Source: an uncultured Brachyspira sp. | GTDB lineage: Bacteria > Spirochaetota > Brachyspiria > Brachyspirales > Brachyspiraceae | Assembly (NCBI RefSeq): GCF_944393015.1 | Contig: NZ_CALXYQ010000012.1 | Coordinates: 1-64,000 of the forward strand | DNA length: 64,000 nt | Reading direction: 5' to 3' | Part shown: positions 1-16,327 of the stretch, in pieces | Layout: each line of letters starts with the position of its first letter | How positions within the stretch are numbered: position 1 is the first letter of the stretch | Notes under the pieces: model-generated | Database searches by the model: none | The model's input: only the letters and a program-made list of their open reading frames with translations | Told to the model about the DNA's origin: nothing | Translations under genes and position numbers: made by a program

Positions 1-300
1 CAGGGCCTATTAACGAACAAATTTTTTATAAAGGATATAAGAAATAAAAAAATTATGAGCCTATTTTAAGTTTACTTAAAATAGCCTAAAAGCAAATAAT
101 TTTTTTATAGATAAAATAAGAAATAAAAAATTTGCGAGTGCCTGACATTCGATAGAATGGCAGGGCCTATTAACGAACAAATTTTTTATAAAGGATATAA
201 GAAATAAAAAAATTATGAGCCTATTTTAAGTTTACTTGAAATAGCCTAAAAGCGAATAATTTTTTTATAGATAAATAAAAAATAAAAAATGTGTGAGCAA
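1..300. repeat. Tandem direct repeat, period 160 bp, family A hairpins
   Basis: The stretch at 1-60 recurs almost unchanged at 161-220, giving a 160-bp period with two units (the second truncated near 300). Each unit carries a hairpin of dispersed family A: GAGCC, a stem ending TTTTAAG, loop TTTA, the complementary stem, then AGCCT. A single base differs between the two stems (one copy has CTTGAAAT where the other has CTTAAAAT). No open reading frame fits. The repeats extend off the left edge, so the copy number is unknown. Confidence 0.85.
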
Positions 301-371
301 CAGCGAACAAGTTTTTATAAAAAATACTAGATAAAATTATTAATAATGTATTGTTATAAAAGGAGTGCTTA

Positions 372-1487
372 ATGGATTTCAAAAAAAAATTGGCTGGTAT
401 TTTAGAGAAAGAAGGATTTGTTAATATATTTTCTTCTTTTCTCGCTATTATTATAGGCTTACTTCTGGGTCTTATAATACTTCTTATAAGTAATGTTCAT
501 GATGCTTTCCCCGCTTTTATGACAATACTTTCAGGAGGATTTTCTGGAGGCTCTAGAGGAATGGGACAGGTTATATATACCGCCACACCTTTAATACTCA
601 CAGGACTTTCAGTTGGATTCGCTTTTAAAAACGGGCTTTTTAATATAGGAGCTCCCGGACAATTTATAGTAGGGGCTTATGCTGCTGTATTAGTAGCAGT
701 AAAATGCACATTTCTTCCGCCTGCTCTGCATTGGTTTGTAGCTTTAATAGTTTCTTTTATAGCCGGAGGACTTTGGGCTTATTTACCGGGTTTTTTAAAG
801 GCTCATTTCAATGTTAATGAAGTTATTTCAAGCATTATGATGAATTATATTGGTATGTATTTAGTTAATTATCTTGTTACGCTTACAGTTTATGATATGC
901 TTAAAAATCAGTCGCAAAATATACCTCCTTCCTCTATGATTCCTACTATGGGGCTTAATGTTATATTCAGAGGTTCAAGTGCTAACGGAGGATTCTTTAT
1001 TGCTATTATAGTAGTAGTAATAGTATATATAATTCTTTCTAAAACTACATTCGGTTTCGAGCTTAAAGCATGCGGACTCAATAAAGATGCAAGTAAATAT
1101 GCCGGCATCAACGAAAAAAGAAATATAGTTCTTTCTATGGTTATAGCAGGAGCTTTAGCAGGACTTGGCGGCGGTCTTTTATATCTTTCTGGTGTTGGAA
1201 AGCATATAGAAGTAGTTGATATACTTGCAGAAGAAGGCTTTATGGGAATACCTATTGCCTTGCTTGGGCTTTCTCACCCTATAGGAATATTAATTGCCGG
1301 ACTTTTCATTGCTCATATTACTGTGGGCGGTTTTTATATGCAGATATATGATTTTACTCCTGAAATTATAGAGATGATTATATCGTCTATAATATATTTC
1401 AGTGCTTTTGCTTTGCTTTTCAAATCTATTGTTGGATTTATATCTAAAAAGCTAATCAAAAAAGAAGAAAAGAATGCTAATGAGTAA
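372..1487 (+). CDS. Nucleoside-type ABC transporter permease (NupP/BmpA-system, first subunit)
   Basis: This is an integral membrane permease of the branched-chain/ribose-like superfamily, as used by Nup/BmpA (basic membrane protein) nucleoside importers. At 371 residues it matches the long permease subunit. It has an N-terminal membrane segment at about 20-42, then the family pattern NIGAPGQ at 91-97 and NVNEVISSIMMNYIG at 147-161, with further hydrophobic helices to the C-terminus. A good Shine-Dalgarno (AAAGGAG) lies before the ATG. The partner permease follows after 31 bp. The ATPase and the lipoprotein binding protein are not in the window and probably lie to the left, although repeats fill the upstream 370 bp. 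The family is assigned with confidence; the nucleoside substrate is inferred from the family. Confidence 0.9.
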   Translation: MDFKKKLAGILEKEGFVNIFSSFLAIIIGLLLGLIILLISNVHDAFPAFMTILSGGFSGGSRGMGQVIYTATPLILTGLSVGFAFKNGLFNIGAPGQFIVGAYAAVLVAVKCTFLPPALHWFVALIVSFIAGGLWAYLPGFLKAHFNVNEVISSIMMNYIGMYLVNYLVTLTVYDMLKNQSQNIPPSSMIPTMGLNVIFRGSSANGGFFIAIIVVVIVYIILSKTTFGFELKACGLNKDASKYAGINEKRNIVLSMVIAGALAGLGGGLLYLSGVGKHIEVVDILAEEGFMGIPIALLGLSHPIGILIAGLFIAHITVGGFYMQIYDFTPEIIEMIISSIIYFSAFALLFKSIVGFISKKLIKKEEKNANE

Positions 1488-1518
1488 AGAATAGAAAATA
1501 TAAAAGGAGATTTTTTTA

Positions 1519-2472
1519 ATGGAAACAATTTATTTTTTAGTACAGCAGACAATGTTTTTTTCTATTCCGCTTTTACTTGTAGCATTAGGCGGAATGTTCT
1601 CTGAAAGAAGTGGGGTAGTTAATATTGCACTTGAAGGCATAATGATAATCGGAGCTTTTGCAGGAATATTTTTTATAAGCAGATTAGGTGCTAATTTCCC
1701 TCCTATGATTACATTATTTTTGGCTATGATTATATCTGCTTTATCCGGTCTTATATTTTCTCTTCTTCATGCTTATGCTGCTATTAGTATGAGTGCAGAT
1801 CAAGTTATAAGCGGTACTGCTTTAAATATATTTGCTCCAGCTTTTGCTATATATGTTACAAGAGCTATTCAAACAGTTCAGCAAATAAGTTTTGTTAATA
1901 ATTTTAGGATAGAATCTGTACCTATACTTGGAAGCATTCCTATAATAGGAGGATTATTCTTCAAAAACACATACATAACAACATATATAGGATTCATAAT
2001 ATTAGCTTTATCTTGGTTTGTTCTTTATAAAACTAGATTCGGGCTTAGATTAAGAAGCTGCGGAGAGCATCCTCAGGCTGCAGATTCTGTTGGTATTAAT
2101 GTTTATAAGATGCGTTATATTGGAGTTGCCATATCAGGAGCATTAGGAGGTTTAGGAGGACTAGTATTTGTTATTCCTACTTCTACAAACTTTAATGCTA
2201 CCGTTGCAGGTTACGGATTCTTAGCTTTAGCAGTATTAATATTCGGACAATGGAAGCCTATGAAGATACTTTATGCTGCTTTCTTCTTCGGACTTATGAA
2301 AACATTAGCTTCTGCTTATTCTGGAATACCTATACTTGCAAGTCTTCCTATATCTAACAATATATACAAAATGATTCCTTATATAACAACTATAATAGTA
2401 CTTGCATTTACTTCTAAAAATTCACAGGCTCCTAAGGCATCAGGTATTCCTTATGATAAGAGTGTAAGATAA
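1519..2472 (+). CDS. Nucleoside-type ABC transporter permease (NupQ-like, second subunit)
   Basis: This is the second permease of the same importer, 317 residues with about eight to ten hydrophobic segments. The sequence SERSGVVNIALEG at 28-40 is the hallmark of the short permease subunit in NupQ/YufQ-like and simple-sugar transporters. The GxGxxGL-rich stretch near 210-220 is also typical. It starts 31 bp after the first permease behind the Shine-Dalgarno AAAAGGAG, so the two are co-transcribed. The operon ends at the hairpin terminator at 2494-2530. Confidence 0.9.
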   Translation: METIYFLVQQTMFFSIPLLLVALGGMFSERSGVVNIALEGIMIIGAFAGIFFISRLGANFPPMITLFLAMIISALSGLIFSLLHAYAAISMSADQVISGTALNIFAPAFAIYVTRAIQTVQQISFVNNFRIESVPILGSIPIIGGLFFKNTYITTYIGFIILALSWFVLYKTRFGLRLRSCGEHPQAADSVGINVYKMRYIGVAISGALGGLGGLVFVIPTSTNFNATVAGYGFLALAVLIFGQWKPMKILYAAFFFGLMKTLASAYSGIPILASLPISNNIYKMIPYITTIIVLAFTSKNSQAPKASGIPYDKSVR

Positions 2473-2493
2473 AATCTATAATTACCGCATATA

Positions 2494-2530
2494 AAAGGCT
2501 GAGAGTTTTTATAGCTCTCGGCTTTTTTTA
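2494..2530 (+). terminator. Intrinsic terminator after the permease pair
   Basis: GGCTGAGAG pairs with CTCTCGGCT (one G-U) around a short AT loop, followed by seven T residues. It lies 22 bp after the stop codon of the second permease. Confidence 0.85.
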
Positions 2531-2552
2531 TTATAAGTTCTTAATTGAAAAA

Positions 2553-2995
2553 TTATAACGCACGGTTAATACGCTTTATATATAAATAAAATTCTATTAA
2601 TTTAATAATTATATATTCATAATTTAATTCTTCGTGCGGTAAATATATCTCAAATTTTAAAAAAACTTGGGTGGGCAGCTAAAATAACAGTTAAAGCAAA
2701 AAAGAAAAATAATACAAAAATATCAAAAACAAACCGTAAGCCTAAAGGGTGGGCAAATGTAATTAAAGTTTTAAAATTTTATTACATACCCCGCCCCTTC
2801 TTCTTTATAATTAATTTTTAAATTTTAATATTAGTTATCTTTATAGTTTAATTAGAAATTATAGCACCCGCCCAAGCGTTAAATAAATTTTTAACTATTT
2901 AAACGCACGATTAAAAAAAATTAAAAATATAATAAAATTTGAATTATAAATCAATATATATTCTTTGCTTCATTCTGCGTGCGATAAAAAATCAA
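2553..2995. repeat. Intergenic mosaic repeat, family B (copy 1)
   Basis: A non-coding block built from two kinds of unit. The first runs from CGCACGGTTAA to CGTGCGG and is about 80 bp. The second runs from TTGGGTGGGCAGCT to GGGTGGGCAAAT and is about 110 bp. Here the order is first unit, second unit, second unit inverted (CATACCCCGCCCC to CACCCGCCCAAGC), first unit again. The same units recur at 35605-35830 and 38995-39335, and a fragment lies near 55950. No ORF, tRNA or known RNA was recognised. Confidence 0.75.
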
Positions 2996-3111
2996 TATTG
3001 GTAAATATCATTAACAAAATATAGAAATATTAATAATAATTGCATTTTATAAATAGCTATTTGTTTTTTGTTAGTATGACAATATATTTTGTTTAATAAA
3101 ATAAAAAAATA

Positions 3112-3139
3112 TTGACTTTGCATTTTATTTAAATATACT
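3112..3139 (+). promoter_or_regulatory. Sigma-70-type promoter for the 90-residue ORF
   Basis: TTGACT, a 16-bp spacer and TATACT, with the start codon about 40 bp downstream of the -10 box. Confidence 0.65.
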
Positions 3140-3177
3140 ATTAATTATGTATAATTTTTATAAATGGATGTAAAGAT

Positions 3178-3450
3178 ATGGCTAATTGTGAAGAATTAAA
3201 TAACTTAATGGAAAATATAGATCATCAAATATTATTCGATAATGCTTTGAAAATAAATGAATTATTGAAAGATGATATTGTATTAGATGATATGATGAGT
3301 GAAAATTTATTTGTTTACTATTTTGAATTATTGGAAATGATAAAATCAAATCCAGAGTCTTATCAAATATCAGATATAGACAATGATGAAAAAATCAAAG
3401 CAATAAATAGTATTATAAGAAAAATGGAATTATCTTTTATAGAATTCTAA
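3178..3450 (+). CDS. Hypothetical protein, 90 residues, acidic and helical
   Basis: A short, acidic, leucine- and isoleucine-rich protein with no cysteine pair, signal peptide or membrane segment. It looks all-helical, and I do not recognise a family. The case for a real gene is its own promoter (3112-3139), a weak Shine-Dalgarno (GGATG, 8 bp before ATG) and a clean stop that leaves only 2 bp before the convergent glycosyltransferase gene. The preceding 640 bp are repeats, so it stands as a single-gene unit. Confidence 0.7.
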   Translation: MANCEELNNLMENIDHQILFDNALKINELLKDDIVLDDMMSENLFVYYFELLEMIKSNPESYQISDIDNDEKIKAINSIIRKMELSFIEF

Positions 3451-3452
3451 TT

Positions 3453-5243
3453 TTATTTTTTTATAAATCCTGTTATAAAACCTTTTATAAAAAATACACC
3501 ATAAGTAAGATGTGATAAAAATATACCTACAGCCTTACAAAAACCCTTTATAGGAGATAATGTACTAACCCAGCTTCCAAGCAAACATAATGCATAAAAA
3601 CTATGAGGAAATAATAAAGCTAAAAATATATTTTTATTAATAGCTGGAATATAAGTATTTAAAACTTGTGGTAAATTAAAATATAAAGCAAAAGGTACAA
3701 AAATAGTATAAAGCAAAAATATTGAAGGAATGAAGTACGATAAACTTAAAGAATTTCCTCCAAATCTTTTAACAAAATATCCCCTATGCCAAGCATAACC
3801 TTTTAATTGTTTAAAATGCCCAAAAAATAAATCCCTTCTATGATGATAAACTAATGCTTCTGGAGTATATAATATTTTTTCATTTTCTTTCATAATATTA
3901 TTGCAAAGTATGGTATCTTCACCAGGCCAATACTCACTGTCAAAGCCCCCTACCCTATCATAAAGCTCCCTTGTAATGATAAAATTGCAGCTAGGATAAT
4001 CATTAACATACTGAACTTTATCAGGTATATATCTAGCCTTATGCTTTCCGCTCATAAGTGTAGAACTGTAAATAAGTCCGCTTATCTGTTTTGAAAAATT
4101 GTCCTTAGGTGTATTAATAGCAGGACCACCCAAAGCAGAAACTTTTGAGCTTTCCATAGCCCTCAATGCATTTAAAAGCCAATCTTTTTCAGGATATGTA
4201 TCATCATCTAAAAATGCTAATATATTACCATTAGATTTTTTTACTCCTATAGCTCTTTTTATTGCAGGAGGAAGTTCTCCTGTTTCTATTATTCTTATTC
4301 TGCTGTCTTTAAATAACTCTATATTTATTTCATCTTCTGTATATTTGTCTGGAAGTATTATCACTTCAAAATTTGTATATATCTGTTCAAGTAAATATTC
4401 TGTTTCTTCTTTTATATAATCATTGATTTTTTTTAAAGGTATTATAATACTTACAAGCGGTTTTTCTTTTAACTCGCAAAATAAATCTTTATAAAAATGA
4501 ACAATATTAAGCCTATAAAATATGGCTAATGTATCAATGAATGTTCTCCAAAGAATAGGAAATCTAATAAATCCAAAATGCCTATTAGGATTAACTATAA
4601 CAGGAGCAGATACTATTTTTTTACCATTAGAATTGCATGCTACCAACACTTCCAAATCATAAGCAAAAGCCTTAACTAATATTCTAGGAAAAATATTTAT
4701 AATAGCATCTCTTTTGAAAAGTTTTAATCCTGTTTGGGTATCCTGTATAGGAAGATGAAAAAATATCTTCACAAACATAAAATATATAAAAGATATTAAT
4801 TTTCTTATATTAGAATAATTAACTACAGAATCTTTATGTCTCTTAGAACCTATAACAACATCAGCATTTTCTTTTTGCATAATCACAAAGAAATTTTCTA
4901 ATTGGGAAGGATCTATTTCCATATCCCCATCACAAAATATTATATATTCTCCGCTTGACATTTCGCATGCTCTTTTTAAAGCATGTCCCTTGCCTTGATT
5001 TTCTCTTGCATAAATACCTATTATATTTTTTAAATTTTTATTTGTATTATTATTTTGAAAATTAGTACATATTTTTTTTATTTCTTCTTTTGAATTATCA
5101 CTACTTCCGTCATCAGAAATAATTATTTCAAAGTTCATAAAAAAAGGAGAAACTTTTTCTATAAGTATATTTATATTTTTTTCTATTGTTTTTTCTATAT
5201 TGTATACAGGAACTAATATAGATACTAATTCATTTATTTTCAT
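3453..5243 (-). CDS. Dual-domain family 2 glycosyltransferase with C-terminal membrane segments
   Basis: This 596-residue protein carries two GT-A (family 2) domains. Domain 1 (about 7-240) resembles dolichyl-phosphate-mannose-synthase types, with SILVPVYN at 8-15, DDGSSDN at 44-50 and the DGD metal site at 105-107. Domain 2 (about 262-480) has SIIIPLK, LDDDTYPEKDW at 345-355 and GEDTILCN at 441-448, as in transferases that build polysaccharide chains. Three hydrophobic stretches follow from about 505 to 596, so it is probably membrane-anchored with the catalytic domains in the cytoplasm. It likely acts in glycolipid or surface-glycan synthesis. Donor and acceptor cannot be told from sequence, and no other glycan genes are next to it. 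Confidence 0.88.
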   Translation of the reverse strand: MKINELVSILVPVYNIEKTIEKNINILIEKVSPFFMNFEIIISDDGSSDNSKEEIKKICTNFQNNNTNKNLKNIIGIYARENQGKGHALKRACEMSSGEYIIFCDGDMEIDPSQLENFFVIMQKENADVVIGSKRHKDSVVNYSNIRKLISFIYFMFVKIFFHLPIQDTQTGLKLFKRDAIINIFPRILVKAFAYDLEVLVACNSNGKKIVSAPVIVNPNRHFGFIRFPILWRTFIDTLAIFYRLNIVHFYKDLFCELKEKPLVSIIIPLKKINDYIKEETEYLLEQIYTNFEVIILPDKYTEDEINIELFKDSRIRIIETGELPPAIKRAIGVKKSNGNILAFLDDDTYPEKDWLLNALRAMESSKVSALGGPAINTPKDNFSKQISGLIYSSTLMSGKHKARYIPDKVQYVNDYPSCNFIITRELYDRVGGFDSEYWPGEDTILCNNIMKENEKILYTPEALVYHHRRDLFFGHFKQLKGYAWHRGYFVKRFGGNSLSLSYFIPSIFLLYTIFVPFALYFNLPQVLNTYIPAINKNIFLALLFPHSFYALCLLGSWVSTLSPIKGFCKAVGIFLSHLTYGVFFIKGFITGFIKK

Positions 5244-5374
5244 ACTTTCTGCTTTTTATAATTTTTTCTTTATATCTATTTTAGATAGAATAATAATGAA
5301 ATATTATACAAAAACTATATAATTTGTAAATATGTGTATACTTGAAGCATAGCATGTTATTTAAACTCAGAAGG

Positions 5375-5932
5375 TCATCCATTAATTTGAAGTTTATTAT
5401 TATCTATAATAAATTCAATTGAAACATATCCCTTATAATTATCAAAATCTTTCTGAGTATAAACATCAGTAAAAAAACATATTTTCTGATTGCTTGAACC
5501 TATAAAACCTCTCTCTTCATCATAAAGATCATCTACATATTCACCATCTATTAAAACATCAGTGTATTTTAATAATTCTAAAGCTCCGTCAAAGTTTGAA
5601 GTATTAATTTCTTCTAAAGTATATCCGCTGAAAAGTATTACAGATAAATCATTTTCTCTGCACCATTTTGCAATATATGATAAACCTTTAGACTGCAGTA
5701 TAGGCTCTCCTCCAAGTAAAGTAATGCCCTCTATATTATAATTTGTTTTACTGTATTGTATTTGTTTTATAATATCATCGCAATTTACTATATGCTTTTT
5801 TATTATAGGCTGCATATGAGTGTTGCAGCAATTTTGGCATCGCTTCATGCAGCCTTGAGTCCATATAGCAAATCTTTTACCTATGCCTTCAGATTCAGTA
5901 CATTCTCTTATACTATTAATATTCAAAAACAT
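5375..5932 (-). CDS. NrdG-like radical-SAM 4Fe-4S protein, last gene of the helicase/PIN/AAA operon
   Basis: 185 residues, the size of class III ribonucleotide reductase activases. The cluster motif is C28-x3-C32-x2-C35, followed by GGEP at 74-77, so it should bind one [4Fe-4S] cluster and S-adenosylmethionine. No nrdD gene is present. It starts 6 bp after the ClpB-like ATPase gene and closes a tightly packed operon, so its target is more likely a protein or nucleotide handled by that system than the reductase. The automatic name 'anaerobic ribonucleotide reductase activating protein' may therefore mislead. Radical-SAM assignment is firm; the substrate is unknown. Confidence 0.85.
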   Translation of the reverse strand: MFLNINSIRECTESEGIGKRFAIWTQGCMKRCQNCCNTHMQPIIKKHIVNCDDIIKQIQYSKTNYNIEGITLLGGEPILQSKGLSYIAKWCRENDLSVILFSGYTLEEINTSNFDGALELLKYTDVLIDGEYVDDLYDEERGFIGSSNQKICFFTDVYTQKDFDNYKGYVSIEFIIDNNKLQING

Positions 5933-5938
5933 AATAAT

Positions 5939-7783
5939 TTATTCTAATTCAAATTCAAAATCTGCCCTTTTAGGATTAAGCTGTACTATTTTTATTGTTC
6001 TTCCCTGAAGCGAATCTATATTTTCAAATACAAAATTTGAAAGAGGATTAATTATTTTACTTTCAAGAACATTCAAAACACCACGCCCACCATTTTTTAT
6101 ATCAACAGTTTTTGATATTGCTGAATATGCATTCTCTTCATTTTCAAATTTAATTTGAGCTTTATATTTTTCTCTTATAAACGTTTCTATAGATTTGAAT
6201 TTTCCTTTAGCTATATTATTAAGGAAATCAGTACTATCTATAAAATTAAAAGGTACAATATTATCTCCAACCCTATTTAAAAGCTCCGGTCTTTTTAACT
6301 CTTCAACAAAATGTCTTTTTACATGCTCTAAAAACTGCTGATATACTTGTTCTTTATCTGCAGTGTAATTTATTTCACTTGCCCCTATATTAGAAGTAAA
6401 TATTATAACAGATTCAGAGAAAGACATTGTTTCACCTTTACCGTCTGTTAATCTTCCGTCTTCAAGTATTTGTAAGAATTTATCAAGTATCCTTCCATGT
6501 GCTTTTTCTATTTCATCAAATAAAAGTACGCAGAAAGGTTTTTCTTTTATGGCATTAGTAAGCTGTCCGCCTTCCTCATAACCTACATATCCCGGAGGAG
6601 CTCCTACAAGTCTTTGATCGCTATGTTCATGGTTAAACTCTGACATATCAAATCTTATACAAGCAGTTTCATCTCCAAATAAAAATTCCGCTAAAGATTT
6701 TGCTAATTCTGTTTTACCAACACCAGTAGGCCCTACAAAAAATAATACGCCTTTAGGCTTTCTTTGTTTTGAAGAATGCTGTATTCCAGAAAAACCTGTA
6801 AATGCCCTTATTATTACATCTTTTACTTTTTCTATTGCTTCATCTTGCCCCTTTACTCTTAAAGCTAAAGTTTTTTCTATGGTAGCTAATTTACTTTTAC
6901 TTAAATCTTCCCAAGAGCTTTTTTTCTCACCATATTTATATAAATTAATTATTTTATCAGCACTTAATTTAGTATCCAATTGCATTGAAAGCTTCATTAT
7001 TTGTGCTATATCTTTAAGTTTAAATCCTTCCAAAGAATCTATAAAATCATTTCTTCTGTTTTCATCTAATGGCGGATCTAAATTTATTAAACTTTCATTA
7101 TTTAATATAAAATTTTCTCTTTCAGGTCTTGCCGGAGTTGGTATATTAATGCAGCTTACATCAGGATTATTTAAATAATATGATGAAGGTATTGTTGAGA
7201 GTTTATTTGTAATTATGATTATTGATCTTTTTTGTTCTTTAAAATCATTATCAAACATATCATAATTCATAGATTCTCTTAAAGCCTTTCCTATTATAGA
7301 AAGCCAATTTCTTTCATTTTCTGATAGAGAAGCATTAGCACCAAATATATAATCAGAATAATCTATAATAAAACATATACGGTTATTTGATTTTGATTTT
7401 ATTTGCTGAAGCACATAATTAAAAAACTCATTAATATCTTTGTATTTTGGACCTTTATTATTATTGTTATTATCTGTTAAATCATCATCGCCTAAATCAT
7501 AAGCATTGCTTGGAGCTTGATTTGCTTTTTCTTCTCCAAATGTTAAATTAGAAATCTTTGAAACATCATAATCAATTCCATCAACTCTATCCCATTTTAT
7601 CACATTATTAAATTTACTGTCTTCATTCAAAATTTTAATAATATAATTTGAAATATATTCATATTTTCCAGTTTTTCTATTTCTTATTATATCAGAAGAA
7701 TTTCCGCTTAAAATAATAGAACCTTTTAATTTAGAATCTCTTATGAATCTTTCAATCCATAAATCAATTTTTCTCTCTTCCAT
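5939..7783 (-). CDS. ClpB/ClpA-like AAA+ ATPase with a degenerate first module
   Basis: 614 residues. The C-terminal half is a complete Clp/HSP100 D2-type module: Walker A GPTGVGKT at 351-358, pore loop GYVGYEEGG at 398-406, Walker B and DEIEKAH at about 418-429, arginine-finger region RPELLNR near 500, and a small helical domain after it. The N-terminal half (about 20-240) has AAA-like strands (Walker-B-like ICFIIDYSDY near 137-146 and sensor-like RSIIIITNK) but no Walker A, so it looks like an inactive AAA module. It lacks the repeated Clp N-domain. No protease partner is nearby. It is the motor of the operon, sitting between the coiled-coil and radical-SAM genes with 12- and 6-bp gaps. The target is unknown. 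Confidence 0.88.
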   Translation of the reverse strand: MEERKIDLWIERFIRDSKLKGSIILSGNSSDIIRNRKTGKYEYISNYIIKILNEDSKFNNVIKWDRVDGIDYDVSKISNLTFGEEKANQAPSNAYDLGDDDLTDNNNNNKGPKYKDINEFFNYVLQQIKSKSNNRICFIIDYSDYIFGANASLSENERNWLSIIGKALRESMNYDMFDNDFKEQKRSIIIITNKLSTIPSSYYLNNPDVSCINIPTPARPERENFILNNESLINLDPPLDENRRNDFIDSLEGFKLKDIAQIMKLSMQLDTKLSADKIINLYKYGEKKSSWEDLSKSKLATIEKTLALRVKGQDEAIEKVKDVIIRAFTGFSGIQHSSKQRKPKGVLFFVGPTGVGKTELAKSLAEFLFGDETACIRFDMSEFNHEHSDQRLVGAPPGYVGYEEGGQLTNAIKEKPFCVLLFDEIEKAHGRILDKFLQILEDGRLTDGKGETMSFSESVIIFTSNIGASEINYTADKEQVYQQFLEHVKRHFVEELKRPELLNRVGDNIVPFNFIDSTDFLNNIAKGKFKSIETFIREKYKAQIKFENEENAYSAISKTVDIKNGGRGVLNVLESKIINPLSNFVFENIDSLQGRTIKIVQLNPKRADFEFELE

Positions 7784-7795
7784 AAATAAAACTCC

Positions 7796-8929
7796 TTATA
7801 ATGTTCTTTCATTATGCTTATCAATATCTATGGCACCTTTAGATATTTTGTCAGGGTTTTCCCATAATACTTTTTTATCAGATAATTTTATAGAATAAAT
7901 TTCTTCCAAATCTTTATTAAATTTATCTATATCCTTAACGCAAGTCAAACCTTCATAATTATCAAAAATATATTCCAATTTTCCATTAAGTCCAACCTTA
8001 CATACAGCTCTTTTTCCAGAAGGTTTTTTAGCTATTATTCTTACTATTCCTCCGTTATCATCTTTTATAAGTTCAGGAGCTGAAACTTCAAACTCACTTC
8101 CTTTTAATGATTTTATTATAGATTTTACTACCTCTTTTCTCACTTCTTCTGTTATTCGTATATCATCTGTTTCTTTATCTATTATTTCAACATCTTTTAC
8201 TACATTCTCAATATTATCTGAAGAATTATTCAAAGACTCTTTAGCAGTTTCTATCTGTTTTAATAATTTATCTCTTTTTTCAATATTCTCCTTGCTTTCT
8301 ATATTTTCTTTTTTTAGATTATCTTCAATATCTTCTATTTTTGTCTGCAGTACTCTTTTTTCTCTCTCTTTTTCTTTTTTTGCTCTCCATTCGCCTGCAT
8401 TGGCATTAGCTTCATCTATAATGCTTTTTATTCTGCTTTCTATATTTTTACTGTGAACACTCATTTCTTTATCTGTAACACCTTCATCATTTAATAACTC
8501 ATTTCTAAACATGTCAAATTTATCTCTAGCAAAATCAATTAGAATAATATCGTTTATAGCACTTATAGTCTTATTAAAATAATCTAAAACTGCCTGTTTA
8601 TTTTTATTTTTTTGTTCTTTTATTATTCTTTCTTCTTCTCTTTTTCTATTCAATGCCTCATTTCTCAAATAATTTATATCAGAAGATAATTGATAACTTA
8701 AATTTCTTGCTGCAAAAGGATCTGTATTAACAATTCTTTCTATATTTTGAATTTCCCCTTTTATATTTTGTATAGATACATATTTATCAAGACCTTCATT
8801 AATAATATTTTGTATAGAATCTCTATGTCTTGCAATAGCATTCATTACATCTCTTTGAGCATTTTGTCTTGCTAATTGCTCCTGCCTTTTTCTTTCTAAT
8901 TCATAATAATAGCTATCATGATGACTCAT
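7796..8929 (-). CDS. Coiled-coil protein with a conserved-looking C-terminal domain, helicase/PIN/AAA operon
   Basis: 377 residues, cytoplasmic. Residues 1-265 are charged and helical with long coiled-coil stretches (notably about 95-120 and 185-245). Residues about 268-360 form a compact alpha/beta-looking domain with hydrophobic strands (IVRIIAKKPSGKRAVCKV, then a YIFDNYEGLTC stretch), which suggests a small binding domain. I do not recognise the family. The start is supported by the Shine-Dalgarno AAGGGGG, and the gap to the ATPase gene is 12 bp. Its place next to the AAA+ motor suggests an adaptor or scaffold, which is inference. Confidence 0.8.
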   Translation of the reverse strand: MSHHDSYYYELERKRQEQLARQNAQRDVMNAIARHRDSIQNIINEGLDKYVSIQNIKGEIQNIERIVNTDPFAARNLSYQLSSDINYLRNEALNRKREEERIIKEQKNKNKQAVLDYFNKTISAINDIILIDFARDKFDMFRNELLNDEGVTDKEMSVHSKNIESRIKSIIDEANANAGEWRAKKEKEREKRVLQTKIEDIEDNLKKENIESKENIEKRDKLLKQIETAKESLNNSSDNIENVVKDVEIIDKETDDIRITEEVRKEVVKSIIKSLKGSEFEVSAPELIKDDNGGIVRIIAKKPSGKRAVCKVGLNGKLEYIFDNYEGLTCVKDIDKFNKDLEEIYSIKLSDKKVLWENPDKISKGAIDIDKHNERTL

Positions 8930-8938
8930 AATTCCCCC

Positions 8939-11476
8939 TTATTTTTTACTATTATTTTTTTTATTCTCATTCTTTTTATTATTATATTTTTGACTTACAT
9001 CTTTCTTATTAGAATTATTCTTTTTGAAATCTTCCAAAGAAATGTATTTTATATTTTGAGAATCCGCTTTAACTTTTAAATTATTATCATCTGTTATAAG
9101 AACAGCATCTTTAGCTAAAAACTTCATTGCAGTAGCTAATATTTTATTATCATTTTTATTTTTATCAAAATCTTTAGGCAATATACTGTTATCATAATCT
9201 TCTTTTCTTATGTTTGCTTTATTATTATTATCTTCTATATTTCTTATAGCTTCTCTAGCTTTGAATTTTATATCTTCATCTTCATTTGTTTTTAATTTAT
9301 CTAATTCTTCTATAACTGTAAGAGGTATTACCAAAAGAGTTTTGCTGTCTATATATTCAAATATTTTTGGCTCATTCATAAGTACATTTGTATCAACTGC
9401 ATAAACTTTACTGAAATTATTTATTGATTTATCATTGAGTTTATAAACTGCTGACTTTATGCCTTCTAATGCTGAATTAATAATACCATTATTTTTGAAG
9501 TCTTCTTTAGTGACTTCAAGTCTTGATGAGATATCTTTTAATATTTTATCTATATTATTTAAATTATTAAGTATTTTATCCTTATCTTTAGAAGTTTTGT
9601 AATATTCTATTATTTTAGGGCTTAAAGATGAAGCTGATATATTATTATAAATATCTCCTTGTTTTAATTTTAAACTTTCTTCTATGCTTTTTATATTATT
9701 AGCAAAACTATTAATAGATTTTTCTATAGATGAATACTCTTCAAATCTGTATTCTGTATTAGACATATATTTTTTCATCATATCTATAAATGCATTCTGA
9801 TATAAGTTTTTAGATACGCTGTCAAGATCTTTAATTTCTGCTTTTATATGTTTTAAATAATCAAATAAAGCATTCAAATCATTATAATCTATAGACTTTA
9901 TATTATTCTTTTTTATAATGCTTAAATATAATTTTGAAATTGCATTATTATCTAATATTTTACTATTAACTATAGGCATCAAATATGATATCAATAAGTT
10001 TATAGTTTTTACATCATTAACTTTTTGATTATTTGAAAGTATATGATTGATAATATTTACAGACTGATTATTATCTAATCTTAATTGTTTAGCATTATAA
10101 ATAATATCATTCATAAAGTTTAGAGCATCATCAATTTTTTCTATATAATTAAATAAGTCTAAAACATTATTTCTAAATGCTTCAATGCCTCCAATAATGA
10201 GAGATATTAATAATATTCTTGCATCTTTTATTTTGTATTTATTTATTAACTCTGAAGCAATTTCATTAAAATCATTCTGATATAAAACAGAATATCCTAA
10301 ACTAATAATTCCCTCTCCAAAATCATTATGAACTCTGAAATTTGATATGCATGCATTAGTTTTATCTTTGTTTAATGCAATACAATTTTCTAATATCATA
10401 TCATCTTCAATATATAATGTCATTTTTTTATCTTTTATATCTATAGAAAAATTATCATTTCCGCATACCAATAAAAGATTAGAATTAGATTTTATTTCAT
10501 CTTGATATAATTTTTTATTTACTATAACAAAATCTTTACTACCTAATATATTTTTTAATTTTTCATCAATTTTTGAAGTTTCATATATATTAAGTATTTT
10601 AGAGAAATTATTATAATTAAAATCATATAAGTCTAAATCATCATCATAATTGTTTTGTAATGTTTCTACACTATCTATATTTTCTATCAATAATTTATTA
10701 AAATCATCATTATTTTTTCTATCTCTTAATTCTACTTTACCATCTTCAAGTAAATATATTCTGTCATTAAAATTTTTCCAAAGATAAAAATAACGGCCTC
10801 TGTCAATATCTCTTATTTCTGAAGTAGGCTGAAGCCAGGAAAATTTATTTTTATTTTTTAATTCTTCTAATATAGATTTTGCTCTATTAAAATCAAATAT
10901 ATCATCGTCGTCGTCATCATCGTCATTATCCCAATCATCATCATCTTCTTCATAGTCATAATCATCGTCTTCATAGTAGTCATCATTTTCTTCTGAATCA
11001 TCATCTGCCAATTTTATACCTTTGGGAAAATTATCAAATTTAAGTTTATCATCATATAAATCAAATTGATTTTCACTTATATCATAAATAAAATCCACAC
11101 TGTCATCTGCTTCTTTTCCAGGTATTAATCCTTTTGCCTGAAGTTCTTTTCCTGAATCTGTAAGCCTTATTTGAGATAATGAAATACTGCTTAAAGATGT
11201 ATTTTCATCTATATACAAATCACTTTCTATGGCATTTAAATTAATCAATTCAATAAGAGATGGTAATACCAAAATATCAGAATCTGGTATAAAAAGCATA
11301 TTCTCAAGTATTGTTTTAATGGATATAGAATTGTATTCATTGTCATTATGGTATCTATTTATTAATTCTAATATAACCCATTCTATAGTAGTGGATTTTC
11401 TTGATGTAAAATGATATACAATAGAATTATATTTTATATAAGGTTTAGAAAAAGATATTGATGATATTTCTTTCAT
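8939..11476 (-). CDS. Large protein with C-terminal PIN nuclease domain and acidic linker
   Basis: 845 residues. The N-terminal region (about 1-120) looks like winged-helix-type alpha/beta. Residues 158-195 are almost entirely Asp/Glu. The middle (200-680) is helical and unassigned. Residues about 685-815 form a PIN ribonuclease domain of the kind found in PhoH-type proteins: VDTNVL (first Asp), EELDKL (Glu), a D-N-K-I-L-A-T-A stretch and ITDD (last acidic pair). All four acidic positions are present, so it is predicted to cut RNA. The C-terminal 30 residues are Lys/Asn-rich. A Shine-Dalgarno AAGGA precedes the start, and 9 bp separate it from the next gene. Fusion to this N-terminal region is unfamiliar to me. 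Confidence 0.82.
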   Translation of the reverse strand: MKEISSISFSKPYIKYNSIVYHFTSRKSTTIEWVILELINRYHNDNEYNSISIKTILENMLFIPDSDILVLPSLIELINLNAIESDLYIDENTSLSSISLSQIRLTDSGKELQAKGLIPGKEADDSVDFIYDISENQFDLYDDKLKFDNFPKGIKLADDDSEENDDYYEDDDYDYEEDDDDWDNDDDDDDDDIFDFNRAKSILEELKNKNKFSWLQPTSEIRDIDRGRYFYLWKNFNDRIYLLEDGKVELRDRKNNDDFNKLLIENIDSVETLQNNYDDDLDLYDFNYNNFSKILNIYETSKIDEKLKNILGSKDFVIVNKKLYQDEIKSNSNLLLVCGNDNFSIDIKDKKMTLYIEDDMILENCIALNKDKTNACISNFRVHNDFGEGIISLGYSVLYQNDFNEIASELINKYKIKDARILLISLIIGGIEAFRNNVLDLFNYIEKIDDALNFMNDIIYNAKQLRLDNNQSVNIINHILSNNQKVNDVKTINLLISYLMPIVNSKILDNNAISKLYLSIIKKNNIKSIDYNDLNALFDYLKHIKAEIKDLDSVSKNLYQNAFIDMMKKYMSNTEYRFEEYSSIEKSINSFANNIKSIEESLKLKQGDIYNNISASSLSPKIIEYYKTSKDKDKILNNLNNIDKILKDISSRLEVTKEDFKNNGIINSALEGIKSAVYKLNDKSINNFSKVYAVDTNVLMNEPKIFEYIDSKTLLVIPLTVIEELDKLKTNEDEDIKFKAREAIRNIEDNNNKANIRKEDYDNSILPKDFDKNKNDNKILATAMKFLAKDAVLITDDNNLKVKADSQNIKYISLEDFKKNNSNKKDVSQKYNNKKNENKKNNSKK

Positions 11477-11511
11477 AAATTATTTCCTTTATTATCTGCT
11501 ATTATCTTTTA

Positions 11512-14451
11512 TTATTTTTTAGAACTATTATTATATTCGTTTAGTATTACATCCGCTTTTTTATAATCTACTACAGTATCGCTTTCAAAAACACAGGCAT
11601 TTCTATATAAATAATCAAGTATTTCTTTATATACTTTTCTTTTTGTTATTCCTTCTCTATCCATATTAGGAAGTTCAACATTTAATTTTTCATATAGATT
11701 TTTTGCTCCTACTATTATTAAAGCGTTTTGAGCCCTTGAAAAAGCAACATTTACCCTTTCAAAAGCAGTAATATGTTTAGATTTTGATTTTCCTGTTTGA
11801 GGATTTCTTACCAAAATTACTATTACTATTTCTTTTTCTTTACCTTGGAATCTGTCAACGGTGTTAATATCTATGTTTATAGCAGAAAAATCAAATTTTC
11901 TTCTCTCATTTTTTAACATTGCTCTTAGTTTATTAACCTGCAATTGATATAAACTTATCACACCAACTTGAACCTTTTTTTCTAAATTTAATTTCTTATA
12001 TGCTACTGCTATTTGCTTTAATAATTCCATAACTATATGTGCTTCAAGTACATTATGAATAGATGTGCTTGTCTGAGTAGTTGATTCATATATAGAGGCT
12101 TTTTTATTTTGGGATAATTTTATTTCGGAAGAATCTATCCAATAAGCATGTCTATCTCTTTTAATAAATGAAAGTCTGTTTGTTCTTTTTATTTCCAATT
12201 GATGGTCTTTAACTGTATCTTCTTTATCTTTTGGTACACCTGCTTTTAATCTGTTTTCATAGAATCTATTTATTATTTCCATAATATGGCTATGCATTCT
12301 GAACTGAGTTAATAATGAATGCTTTATCTCATTAGGTGCTTGTTCAAAATAAGTTTTAAATATTGAAGAAGTTACCATATTTTCGTATTTATTAAAGTTT
12401 TCTTCTGTAAGAATACTTTTCACCTGTTTATTTTCATCTGTATCTTCTATTGTATCAATAATTTCTTTATATGATTTTTCATACTCTCCGAAAAGAGGAG
12501 GAAGCTGTCTATGGTCGCCTACAAGTATTACTTTTTTCCCTCTAAGCATAGGCATTAATAATTCAGGAGGTGTTGCTTTACTAACCTCATCTATTATAAC
12601 AACATCAAATGCATTAAAGCCTTTATCTTCCAATGTTTTAGTATTTTCAGTGCATGACATACCAACTACATTGCATGAATTTATATATGTATCTTTAAAA
12701 TATTCATTTTCATAATTGATATCTATTTTTTCTAATCTTTCATTAAAATCTTTTATGAAAGAACCAAATTTATTTCTAAAATCTTTTTGATTTTCTAAAA
12801 TTTTTTTAGCTTCATCTCTTTTTGAAGATAAAACATTATAAATTTCATTATTAGGAGTTTCATCTGGAATATTTGTTTCTTGTTTAATATTTCTTATTTT
12901 TTTCTTATCTTCATTTATACTATTTATTAAATTATATTCATCTTCATCTATAGTTCTTATTCTGCCCTCAGCTGTTCTTAACTGACTTTCTAATTCTTTT
13001 GTATCTTCTGCTTTCAATGAATTTTTATAAGTATTAGAATATTCTTCTATATTATCAAATACTTTTTCTATTTCATCTATTTTTGAAATATTTTTATTTA
13101 TACATTCTTTTATAATATTAGTATTATTAGAATTGTTATATTCATTTATTATACTTTCATCTAATAATGCTTTATAAGTTTCTTTTAATTCAAAACTATT
13201 AATTTTTAATTCTGCTCTCTCTTTTTTAAGCTTCCTAAATTCTTTTGAAAGTTTATCATAATCATCATCAGATATATCAGGATCATTCATTTTATCTCTT
13301 ATTTCATTTATTCTATTTTCTAAAAGAAGTACTTCAGGAGAGTTTTTAGTATTACCGGAAGATTCTATATCCTTCTTCATATTATTAAAGTAATTAATAT
13401 TTTTATAAATACCTTTTAATCCTTTTGTAAGTATATCTTCTGACATATTATCTATATTAAGATTAATAGTATCAATTTTAATCTTTTCTAGAGAATGAAG
13501 TTTATCATTTATATTGTTTAATATTAAATTAATATAATCTTTAGGAAGTACAAATTCAACATCATTATTTTCTTTATTTTCTTTTATCAATTTAGTAAAA
13601 ATGTTAATTTGATTTTTTATTATATTTAAATCATTATTTTTATTTTTTATATTATTAATCTCTTCATTTAAATTACTTATCTCATTACTTAAGTTATGTT
13701 TTTCTTCTTTTAAATTACTTAATTTACTTGTATACTGATCTATTCTTGATAAATACTGATTAATATCTCTCAAGTATAAATCCAAATTATTTACGATTTT
13801 TTCGCTTGCTTCCCAATTATTTAAATACTCATTTTTTAATTTATCAGATATATTACTGAAAAAGAAACTTAATACTTTATTTTCAGTCATATGTTCAATA
13901 TCTTCTGTACTTTTTTGGGCATTAAGTCTTATAGCCCTTATAATAGGTTCTTTTGCTAATCTTTCTAAAGCATTATCAACAGCTAAATTGGTTTGAGAAG
14001 CTATTAATACTCTTTCTCCTCTTAAAGCAAATTGATATATTGCCTCAGCTATAACTGTAGTTTTACCTGTACCCGGAGGGCCCTGTATTAAACAAACATC
14101 TTTAGTAGCAAGCATTTTTCTTACAGCTATATTTTGTTCTCTGTTATTTTCTATTCCTTTATTAAGCCATTTATCTATTTTTATATCATCAATATTTGGT
14201 ATTTCTGCCTTGCTTATATCGAATAACCATAAAGGAAGATTAGGACAATATCCTTCATCTCTCTTTAAACTTGCTATTGACTCTCTAAGTCTTCTTATTA
14301 AAGCAAAATCCCCTACAGCAGATAATGCTATAAAACCATCATCATTGAAATATTTAAATATATTTTCTTCTACATACTGTTTTATTTCTTCTTTTGATAA
14401 ATCTCTGTCTTTTATATCATCTAAAGTATCTTCATCTAATTCAAAAGCCAT
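11512..14451 (-). CDS. SF1 (Upf1/Dna2-like) helicase, probable C-terminal part of a split gene
   Basis: 979 residues from the first ATG. Motif I is GPPGTGKT at 124-131. A coiled-coil-rich insertion covers about 210-560. It then shows motif II (VVIIDEVSKA), motif III (VGDHRQLPP), TQFRMH, DRFQGKE and NVAFSRA, so it is a complete Upf1-like superfamily 1B ATPase acting on RNA or DNA. There is no Shine-Dalgarno before this ATG. The frame stays open for 28 more codons upstream, into the end of the preceding ORF, where it lies in the -1 frame. The true product may therefore begin in the upstream ORF (see findings). It is 35 bp from the PIN gene. Confidence 0.88.
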   Translation of the reverse strand: MAFELDEDTLDDIKDRDLSKEEIKQYVEENIFKYFNDDGFIALSAVGDFALIRRLRESIASLKRDEGYCPNLPLWLFDISKAEIPNIDDIKIDKWLNKGIENNREQNIAVRKMLATKDVCLIQGPPGTGKTTVIAEAIYQFALRGERVLIASQTNLAVDNALERLAKEPIIRAIRLNAQKSTEDIEHMTENKVLSFFFSNISDKLKNEYLNNWEASEKIVNNLDLYLRDINQYLSRIDQYTSKLSNLKEEKHNLSNEISNLNEEINNIKNKNNDLNIIKNQINIFTKLIKENKENNDVEFVLPKDYINLILNNINDKLHSLEKIKIDTINLNIDNMSEDILTKGLKGIYKNINYFNNMKKDIESSGNTKNSPEVLLLENRINEIRDKMNDPDISDDDYDKLSKEFRKLKKERAELKINSFELKETYKALLDESIINEYNNSNNTNIIKECINKNISKIDEIEKVFDNIEEYSNTYKNSLKAEDTKELESQLRTAEGRIRTIDEDEYNLINSINEDKKKIRNIKQETNIPDETPNNEIYNVLSSKRDEAKKILENQKDFRNKFGSFIKDFNERLEKIDINYENEYFKDTYINSCNVVGMSCTENTKTLEDKGFNAFDVVIIDEVSKATPPELLMPMLRGKKVILVGDHRQLPPLFGEYEKSYKEIIDTIEDTDENKQVKSILTEENFNKYENMVTSSIFKTYFEQAPNEIKHSLLTQFRMHSHIMEIINRFYENRLKAGVPKDKEDTVKDHQLEIKRTNRLSFIKRDRHAYWIDSSEIKLSQNKKASIYESTTQTSTSIHNVLEAHIVMELLKQIAVAYKKLNLEKKVQVGVISLYQLQVNKLRAMLKNERRKFDFSAINIDINTVDRFQGKEKEIVIVILVRNPQTGKSKSKHITAFERVNVAFSRAQNALIIVGAKNLYEKLNVELPNMDREGITKRKVYKEILDYLYRNACVFESDTVVDYKKADVILNEYNNSSKK

Positions 14452-14510
14452 TTCTATAAAATAAGGATTATCTGAAATTGACTCTATATCTTCTTTAAAA
14501 TCTTCAAGTA

Positions 14511-15533
14511 TTACAAAATCTCTTCCTTTTCTTTTTTATTTTCTAGTTGCTTTGTTAATTCTTCTACTTCTTTTTCAGAAGGTTTAGAATTCATTTCTTT
14601 TATTATCATAGAGAACTTGCCCAAACTAACAGCATTTTTTCCGCTTCTGTTTCTTTCATTAAAACGAAATACCCATCTATTTGTAGAATACTTATTATCA
14701 AATACTTTTACGCTTTCCCTTCTGAAATATCTTCTTATTTTATCAAAATCAGCCTTTGACGGAGCAGCTAATTGAAATACTATAAGCTGTTTTTCCTCAT
14801 TATAATAGTAATTAAAATATTTTATACCAACCAATCTTATCTTTACAAGCTCTTCTCTCCAATTTAAATATCCTTCCCAGTTTTCAAGATTAGTATTTAA
14901 ATGTTCTCTTATAGATTCTGTAGTATTTATTAATTCATTTAAACATTCTTTTCTGTATCCTGAAGGTATATTGGTATGATAAGGCGTAACAGTTATTTCT
15001 GTTTCAAATTCTTTGCATCCTTCATAATTACCGATGATTGATATTTCATTTATAACAAAAAATCCTTCCCTTATATATCCTCTAAAAGATAAAGTTAAAT
15101 CATCACTGATATTGTCTTCCAAAAATCTTGTCTTTTGAGGTCTTAAATATAATTTTCTTGATTCTCTTTCCGCACCTTTTTTATCTATATATGTATGAGA
15201 TGCATTTGTAAAATAACAAGTATTATTATAATTTTCTATAAAACACTCTCTCAATAACAAGCTTAATTTTTCATTATTATCTTCTATATCTTGAAAAATA
15301 TCAGGAAAATTTTTCTCTAATTCTTTTATGCTGGAATTAAGTCTGCCTCTATCTTTTTCTTCATCACTATATCTTAGATATATATTGTTAGACATAATAT
15401 CATTATCCTTATTATTTATAATAATTTTTTTCTTTACAACAACTTTTCTATTGAAAACTATTGATTTTAATGCTTTATCCTGATCATTAATATGTATTAT
15501 TTTTTTTATAATTACTTTAGGCTTCATAATCAT
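14511..15533 (-). CDS. Helicase-associated N-terminal protein, first ORF of the helicase/PIN/AAA operon
   Basis: 340 residues, cytoplasmic. I recognise no catalytic domain. Residues about 205-235 contain LENWEGYLNWREEL, a Trp/Tyr-rich helix of the type seen in N-terminal accessory regions of Upf1-like helicases. The C-terminal 25 residues are a charged helix, which suggests this ORF encodes the N-terminal part of the adjacent helicase. The start is uncertain: the first ATGs (15533, 15527) have no Shine-Dalgarno, while ATG 15395 (residue 47) has AAGGA upstream, and the first 46 residues are Lys/Ile/Val-rich. The ORF ends at 14511, where the helicase frame is already open. Confidence 0.72.
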   Translation of the reverse strand: MIMKPKVIIKKIIHINDQDKALKSIVFNRKVVVKKKIIINNKDNDIMSNNIYLRYSDEEKDRGRLNSSIKELEKNFPDIFQDIEDNNEKLSLLLRECFIENYNNTCYFTNASHTYIDKKGAERESRKLYLRPQKTRFLEDNISDDLTLSFRGYIREGFFVINEISIIGNYEGCKEFETEITVTPYHTNIPSGYRKECLNELINTTESIREHLNTNLENWEGYLNWREELVKIRLVGIKYFNYYYNEEKQLIVFQLAAPSKADFDKIRRYFRRESVKVFDNKYSTNRWVFRFNERNRSGKNAVSLGKFSMIIKEMNSKPSEKEVEELTKQLENKKEKEEIL

Positions 15534-15661
15534 ACATATTTATGTAAAAAATAATTTTATATATAATTTTTTAGTATATAACATATTATAGTAAAATCAA
15601 TATTTTATATAAAGAATATACTTAATTATATAATATTAAATGTTTAATTATATAATAATTT

Positions 15662-16327
15662 TTAAATAGTGCTAATATTTATATAAATATTGATACTTGA
15701 ATGATTTTCAAAATCATGTATTTCTGATAGTTTGATATCAAGAGGCTTTTTAAATATAGGGCCGTCATATACAAATGTATGAAACTCTCCAGATTCTCCT
15801 GCAGGGTCTATTCCAATCGATATAAATTCATCAATAAGTTCATTAGTAAAATCAATACCTAAATATTTTTTATCAAGTTTTGATGTATCAATTATTTTTA
15901 TTTTAGCTTTAAAACCGGCATTAACAAATTCTCTCGCTAATGATATTCTTGACTGATGCCATAAAGGAAACTTTGATTCAAAACCTGATTCCTTACATAA
16001 ATTTTCAGCCCAATCTCTATGCATTTGAATATCTATATCTCCAAAAGCACAAATATTAATTCCTTCTTCTTTGACTTTTTTTAATTCTTCTATAAAATTT
16101 ACTCTATAAGTATAATGTGTGGTATTGATAGCAATATGAGGAATATCTAAACATTTACTTACTTCATCAAATAATTCTTTAGATATTCCATGAAACCATG
16201 AATGTTTATCTTCTTCATTTATAGTGGTCATTATATACTGAGGAATATATCCGTCTTTAATCATTTTGTATAATGCCAAAGTGCTGTCTTTTCCTCCGCT
16301 ATATGACATAACAAATTTTTTACTCAT
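15662..16327 (-). CDS. Dph6-like PP-loop ATP pyrophosphatase
   Basis: 221 residues, an adenine-nucleotide alpha-hydrolase of the diphthine-ammonia-ligase (Dph6/COG2102) family. The PP-loop is SYSGGKDS at 8-15, and the family signature GESGEFHTFVYDGPIF lies at about 176-191. Bacteria do not make diphthamide, so the reaction is probably an ATP-dependent amidation or related adenylation on a small molecule or protein. The real substrate is unknown. It is a single gene between the helicase operon and the thioesterase. Confidence 0.88.
   Translation of the reverse strand: MSKKFVMSYSGGKDSTLALYKMIKDGYIPQYIMTTINEEDKHSWFHGISKELFDEVSKCLDIPHIAINTTHYTYRVNFIEELKKVKEEGINICAFGDIDIQMHRDWAENLCKESGFESKFPLWHQSRISLAREFVNAGFKAKIKIIDTSKLDKKYLGIDFTNELIDEFISIGIDPAGESGEFHTFVYDGPIFKKPLDIKLSEIHDFENHSSINIYINISTI

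Follow-up and report, generated by a model that had tools for sequence, protein, structure and literature searches.

A Conserved Helicase–PIN–AAA+–Radical-SAM Operon of Brachyspira as a Putative Mobile Five-Gene Defence System

The operon described here, from an uncultured Brachyspira sp., is probably a horizontally mobile five-gene defence system in which anti-phage decay of RNA or single-stranded DNA (ssDNA) would be gated by an AAA+/DUF2997/radical-SAM module. This reading is based on the co-occurrence and order of the genes, the correlated distances of their proteins, empty sites in related genomes, patchy presence, plasmid carriage, defence genes in the neighbourhood, the match of the helicase to MkoA, the predicted folds, the DUF2997-like domain, and the recurrence of related radical-SAM and AAA+ genes in other cassettes.

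Organization of the Operon

Within the window, i.e., the whole analysed stretch of 64,000 nucleotides, six ORFs lie at 5375–15533, all on the minus strand and with intergenic gaps of 6–59 bp, as checked on the ORF coordinates. The description of this region as a six-ORF operon in the sequence-only reading holds for the coordinates, the single strand, and the small gaps; the number of genes is five, because the lack of a single A divides one gene into the first ORF and the helicase ORF. The six-gene reading is ruled out by this frameshift. The features are listed below.

5324–15685, no strand: accessory insert with the entire operon, the flanks of which are nearly adjacent in three operon-free Brachyspira relatives
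11512–15533, minus strand: UPF1-like SF1 helicase gene, frameshifted, comprising an N-terminal part (14511–15533) and a helicase part (11512–14451) that are fused in L144 and L145
14527–14530, minus strand: shortened A-tract splitting the helicase gene, one base fewer than in L011, L144, and L145 by junction alignment
8939–11476, minus strand: PIN-domain nuclease (PIN_4, E 3e-22) with conserved acidic residues and a predicted SMG6-like fold
7796–8929, minus strand: coiled-coil protein with a C-terminal DUF2997-like domain, assigned by profile comparison with DUF2997 and a structure model
5939–7783, minus strand: two-module AAA+ ATPase, the first module without a Walker A motif, the second ClpB-D2-like and intact
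5375–5932, minus strand: NrdG-like radical-SAM enzyme with a conserved C-terminal extension, motifs conserved, forming its own clade

The product of ORF 14511–15533 matches the N-terminal part of helicases with 119 bits against the helicase HMM, and helicase homologues elsewhere are approximately 1320 aa long. In two other Brachyspira copies, L144 and L145, both parts are fused in frame, and these stop-free frames comprise 1305 and 1285 codons. At approximately 14527–14530, within the A-rich junction, the window has one A fewer than L011, L144, and L145, and the helicase is split into two ORFs because this tract is one base short. The missing A may be a sequencing error or a result of slippage or decay.

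The domain calls made from the letters alone were borne out by Pfam and NCBIfam: Fer4_12/radical SAM, AAA_2 (ClpB D2-like), PIN_4, and AAA_11/AAA_12; the coiled-coil protein and the first ORF gave no reliable match in either collection. The DUF2997-like domain and the SMG6-like PIN fold escaped those descriptions, as did the recurrence of the last three genes in other systems. Alignments show that the predicted catalytic residues are conserved in the helicase, the PIN protein, the second AAA module, and the radical-SAM enzyme.

The Helicase and the PIN Nuclease

The closest solved relatives of the helicase, whose motifs are conserved among the aligned homologues, are SMUBP-2, DNA2, and UPF1. 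In most homologues an insert of approximately 480–505 aa follows the Walker A motif, between motifs I and II, so that the long insert noticed in the Brachyspira protein is a family-wide trait. The top PADLOC match is MkoA of the Mokosh system (E 1e-100, with no curated cut-off given), and Mokosh-like helicase matches were also found in loci L024 and L025. With DNA2 among the near relatives, the substrate may be RNA or ssDNA.

The PIN protein is composed of N-terminal beta/helical domains, helical repeats, and a C-terminal PIN domain at approximately residues 690–815, the middle region of the structure model being poor. The PIN domain matches PIN_4 and retains four conserved acidic residues, D695, E724, D776, and D797. 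The acidic linker, proposed as a feature of the system, turned out to be confined to Brachyspira when homologues were compared. In a fold search against solved structures the predicted PIN domain was nearest to that of SMG6; Nmd4 and further PIN domains of RNA decay (exosome) ranked lower. These folds of RNA-decay nucleases or their partners speak against the operon being a DNA-acting helicase–nuclease system for restriction or against plasmids, with a PIN domain cutting ssDNA or forks; the presence of SMUBP-2 and DNA2 among the nearest helicases and the proximity of plasmid copies to BREX and restriction genes would suit such a system, which nevertheless appears quite improbable.

The Coiled-Coil Protein and the AAA+ ATPase

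In the structure model of the coiled-coil protein residues 1–277 are helical and are followed by strands and a helix, and a fold search with this model returned no match at E ≤ 0.001. The C-terminus bears a YxGxxC motif (G327, C330) and aligns with DUF2997 across 47 columns that include GxxC (hhalign probability 84%, P 7e-6), the score being 34.2, whereas none of 60 column shuffles exceeded 17.8. The assignment rests on this profile comparison, as single-sequence Pfam matches to DUF2997 are weak (best E 0.014). A match of the same C-terminus to DUF1257 was not convincing in profile comparisons with controls. In two mollicute-like loci, in which TGA was read as Trp, the AAA+ gene and GxxC are kept and there is no adjacent radical-SAM gene; GxxC may therefore have another role. 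The functions of DUF2997 and Ycf35 are unexplained in the literature found.

The first module of the AAA+ protein is devoid of Walker A across the aligned homologues, and the second is ClpB-D2-like and intact. The absence noted earlier is thus real and ancestral, an old family trait; a recent loss in Brachyspira is ruled out by the same alignment. In the ClpB/HSP100 equivalog test only the second module matches, with 276 bits vs. the cut-off of 1232, which places the protein outside that equivalog. The first module resembles the N-terminal half of Ycf46 weakly, above shuffles (P 0.0016), and the catalytic halves align over 73 columns only.

The Radical-SAM Enzyme

The motifs CxxxCxxCC, GGEP, and GSxNQ and the C-terminal extension are conserved in the radical-SAM enzymes of the operons. 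The resemblance to NrdG lies in size and in the motifs CxxxCxxC, GGEP, and GSxNQ, whereas the operon enzyme scores 99 bits in the NrdG equivalog test, below the cut-off of 126.1, and is distinguished by its extension and its separate clade. This clade has a support of 0.976, and its separation is carried by the NrdGs L124–L127, the E. coli NrdG included alongside them being an approximate sequence. True nrdG elsewhere adjoins nrdD, unlike the radical-SAM gene of the operon, and NrdD (PF13597) is absent from the whole host genome, in which positive controls were found; a search of that genome with the operon enzyme revealed no other relative of it. The notion of an activase without its reductase is thereby confirmed at the genome level. 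As judged from genome content (NrdD absent) and phylogeny (a clade of operon enzymes only), the enzyme is not the activator of NrdD; a role of NrdG in ribonucleotide reduction is ruled out on the same grounds.

Distribution and Conservation of the Gene Set

With the AAA+ protein as the query, 57 loci were found in genome contigs. With HMMs of the five proteins, all five genes were found together on one strand in 38 loci from approximately eight phyla. By ORF call the order helicase–PIN–coiled coil–AAA+–radical SAM is kept in 37 of the 38, the exception being L043 with over-extended ORF calls. The set is complete in 36 of the 41 loci with enough flank, a radical-SAM gene accompanies AAA+ in 55 of the 57 loci, and the median intergenic gaps across loci range from −3 to 0 bp. 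The record titles name Spirochaetota, Synergistota, Bacillota, Pseudomonadota, Planctomycetota, Lentisphaerae, Campylobacterota (Helicobacter), and Myxococcota; these labels are taken from the titles, not every listed locus holds all five genes, and single labels may be wrong because several records are metagenome bins. A query with the Tenebrionibacter operon, at the sensitivity of megablast, found no E. coli copies.

This arrangement is far beyond chance. The distances of the five proteins correlate at 0.82–0.96 over 22 loci, part of which is due to host relatedness. The genes co-occur across phyla and the radical-SAM gene is not paired with nrdD, the two observations on which the single-system idea of the sequence-only reading had been made to depend, and that idea stands. 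The alternative of two unrelated neighbouring modules, helicase–PIN and coiled coil–AAA+–radical SAM, could draw on the loci that have the AAA+/radical-SAM module without the PIN gene (L024, L046, L063, L064, L065, and L099); it is scarcely credible in view of the order kept in nearly all loci, the minimal gaps, and the correlation of protein distances across both halves.

In the variant L024 (8655–21511) the coiled-coil, AAA+, and radical-SAM genes are followed by those of a vWA protein, PP2C, a kinase, and a Mokosh-like helicase, and the locus has the appearance of a TerY-P triad attached to the AAA+/radical-SAM module. L063, L064, and L099 combine AAA+ and radical-SAM genes with kinases and FHA domains, those of L063 and L064 having been read by eye. 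Since AAA+ and radical SAM recur with vWA, PP2C, kinase, and FHA genes, we infer that coiled coil–AAA+–radical SAM is a reusable regulatory module.

The next-nearest plasmid radical-SAM enzymes include members of AAA+–DUF1257–DUF2997–radical-SAM cassettes. In other Brachyspira species a separate cassette occurs, comprising a Ycf46-like AAA, DUF2997, a DUF1257-like gene, and radical SAM (L117, 5970–9713; L119, 5768–9757). Two further spirochaete genomes have DUF2997 amid genes resembling those of a contractile injection or phage-tail apparatus (L115, 6867–7070; L116, 7259–7462), in L116 together with a Ycf46-like AAA gene and a radical-SAM gene.

Mobility and Genomic Neighbourhood

The operon is carried by 5 of the 26 Brachyspira genomes. 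In three relatives the sequence corresponding to window positions 1–5323 is nearly adjacent to that from 15686 onward (16395 onward in L149), with no operon between; the insert, of 10.4 kb, is therefore the operon itself. Short repeats at window positions 1–300 match several places in the flank of the relatives. In one Brachyspira genome (L145 and L146) stop codons and a change of frame break up the AAA+ gene, so that decay of the operon seems to be under way in some lineages.

Among 11 plasmid matches, 10 cover at least 80% of the AAA+ protein, and the neighbourhoods of six were read. One contains BREX-1, DarT, and a viperin-like radical-SAM gene with a kinase near the operon, one a type I specificity gene, ArdA, and an AbaSI-type enzyme, one BREX-3, and one a TIR-NLR gene with one for an HsdR N-terminal protein; another has toxin–antitoxin-like genes only, and one plasmid bears a variant system. 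On an Acinetobacter plasmid (L096, 22733–24712) a viperin-like radical-SAM gene and a gene for a VakA-like nucleotide kinase come after the operon. No full-length AAA+ match was found among 50,697 phage records, and a phage-borne system was rejected on this basis.

At E ≤ 1e-20 the 132 flank proteins of the genomic loci matched 68 PADLOC families vs. 20 for 112 control proteins, an enrichment that is only suggestive because families rather than proteins were counted and the controls, drawn from genomes of like kind and compared with the same 2023 copy of PADLOC, contained CRISPR and MADS genes. This coarseness, the plasmid with toxin–antitoxin-like genes only, and the frameshifted helicase of the window count against the defence reading. 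The defence-gene neighbours, the accessory insertion, and the Mokosh-like helicase scores nevertheless support the putative defence role that had been proposed.

Patchiness within Brachyspira, clean accessory insertion, plasmid carriage, and defence neighbours also bear on another explanation, namely that the operon is a host machine for RNA quality or stress response, a bacterial surveillance resembling nonsense-mediated decay, spread by transfer because it is self-contained. All of these argue against such a machine, which appears unlikely; its UPF1- and SMG6-like parts would fit, and an unfoldase-type ATPase might suit the clearing of stalled complexes.

Comparison with Known Systems

The helicase of the operon belongs to the same UPF1-like SF1 family as that of Mokosh, which likewise combines it with a nuclease in defence islands. 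The nuclease of Mokosh is of the PLD type (PMC10952713), whereas the operon has PIN and three more conserved genes; neither MkoB, nor a kinase, nor PLD was found in it (Pfam gives PIN_4 and no PLD). Type II and III CoCoNuTs resemble it in several components: a helicase of the UPF1 type in which Walker A precedes a large helical insert, an RNase, coiled coils, and an NTPase of the hexameric type. The core of those systems is the McrB GTPase and the McrC nuclease, with a HEPN RNase, and they are accompanied by TerY-P triads (PMC11090510), which they share with the variant L024. In contrast, the RNase of the operon is PIN, radical SAM and a DUF2997-like domain are added, and the McrB GTPase and McrC nuclease domains are absent from all operon proteins according to Pfam. 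The operon is similar in logic to both systems and departs from a defining feature of each.

The AAA+–DUF1257(Ycf35)–DUF2997–radical-SAM cassettes are similar in having a related radical-SAM enzyme, a GxxC-bearing DUF2997, and an AAA+ protein with a degenerate first half; they differ in that DUF2997 is stand-alone, the catalytic AAA belongs to another clade, and there is no helicase or PIN. Among solved folds SMG6 and Nmd4 are nearest to the PIN protein, and its pairing with a UPF1-like helicase recalls UPF1–SMG6 and Upf1–Nmd4 of nonsense-mediated decay, but the operon is bacterial with other partners, and the likeness is an analogy by fold. No description of the five-gene set, nor the family name PLuB, was found in the literature searched, whose coverage was incomplete, with most subscription papers outside it. 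The operon is probably an anti-phage system undescribed so far; this novelty is provisional because of the partial literature coverage and the date of the PADLOC copy.

Proposed Mechanism and Implications

UPF1 and SMG6 are the helicase/nuclease pair of nonsense-mediated decay, in which SMG6 cuts. By analogy, in the proposed defence system the UPF1-like helicase would load on RNA (or ssDNA) that comes from phage or is aberrant in some other way, and would recruit the PIN nuclease to make the cut. The coiled-coil/DUF2997 protein and the two-module AAA+ would form a remodelling module that holds helicase–PIN off and then releases it. Licensing of the module would fall to the radical-SAM enzyme, through modification of a partner protein, the least certain step; GxxC of the DUF2997-like domain is the best candidate for the site, a tentative and rather doubtful one.

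A broader proposal, which for the present seems unlikely, is that of a bacterial UPF1–SMG6-like RNA-decay immunity gated by a general radical-SAM/AAA+ switch, the substrate being GxxC of DUF2997-type domains, with the same switch behind the Ycf35/DUF2997/AAA+ cassettes of cyanobacteria and other bacteria. Viperin is a defence radical-SAM enzyme that makes a nucleotide; the defence reading of the operon, if right, would add a protein-acting radical-SAM enzyme to bacterial immunity. The operon would then also be the bacterial equivalent of the RNA-decay cut made by UPF1–SMG6, and work on DUF2997 and Ycf35, both conserved families, would have a first point of entry.
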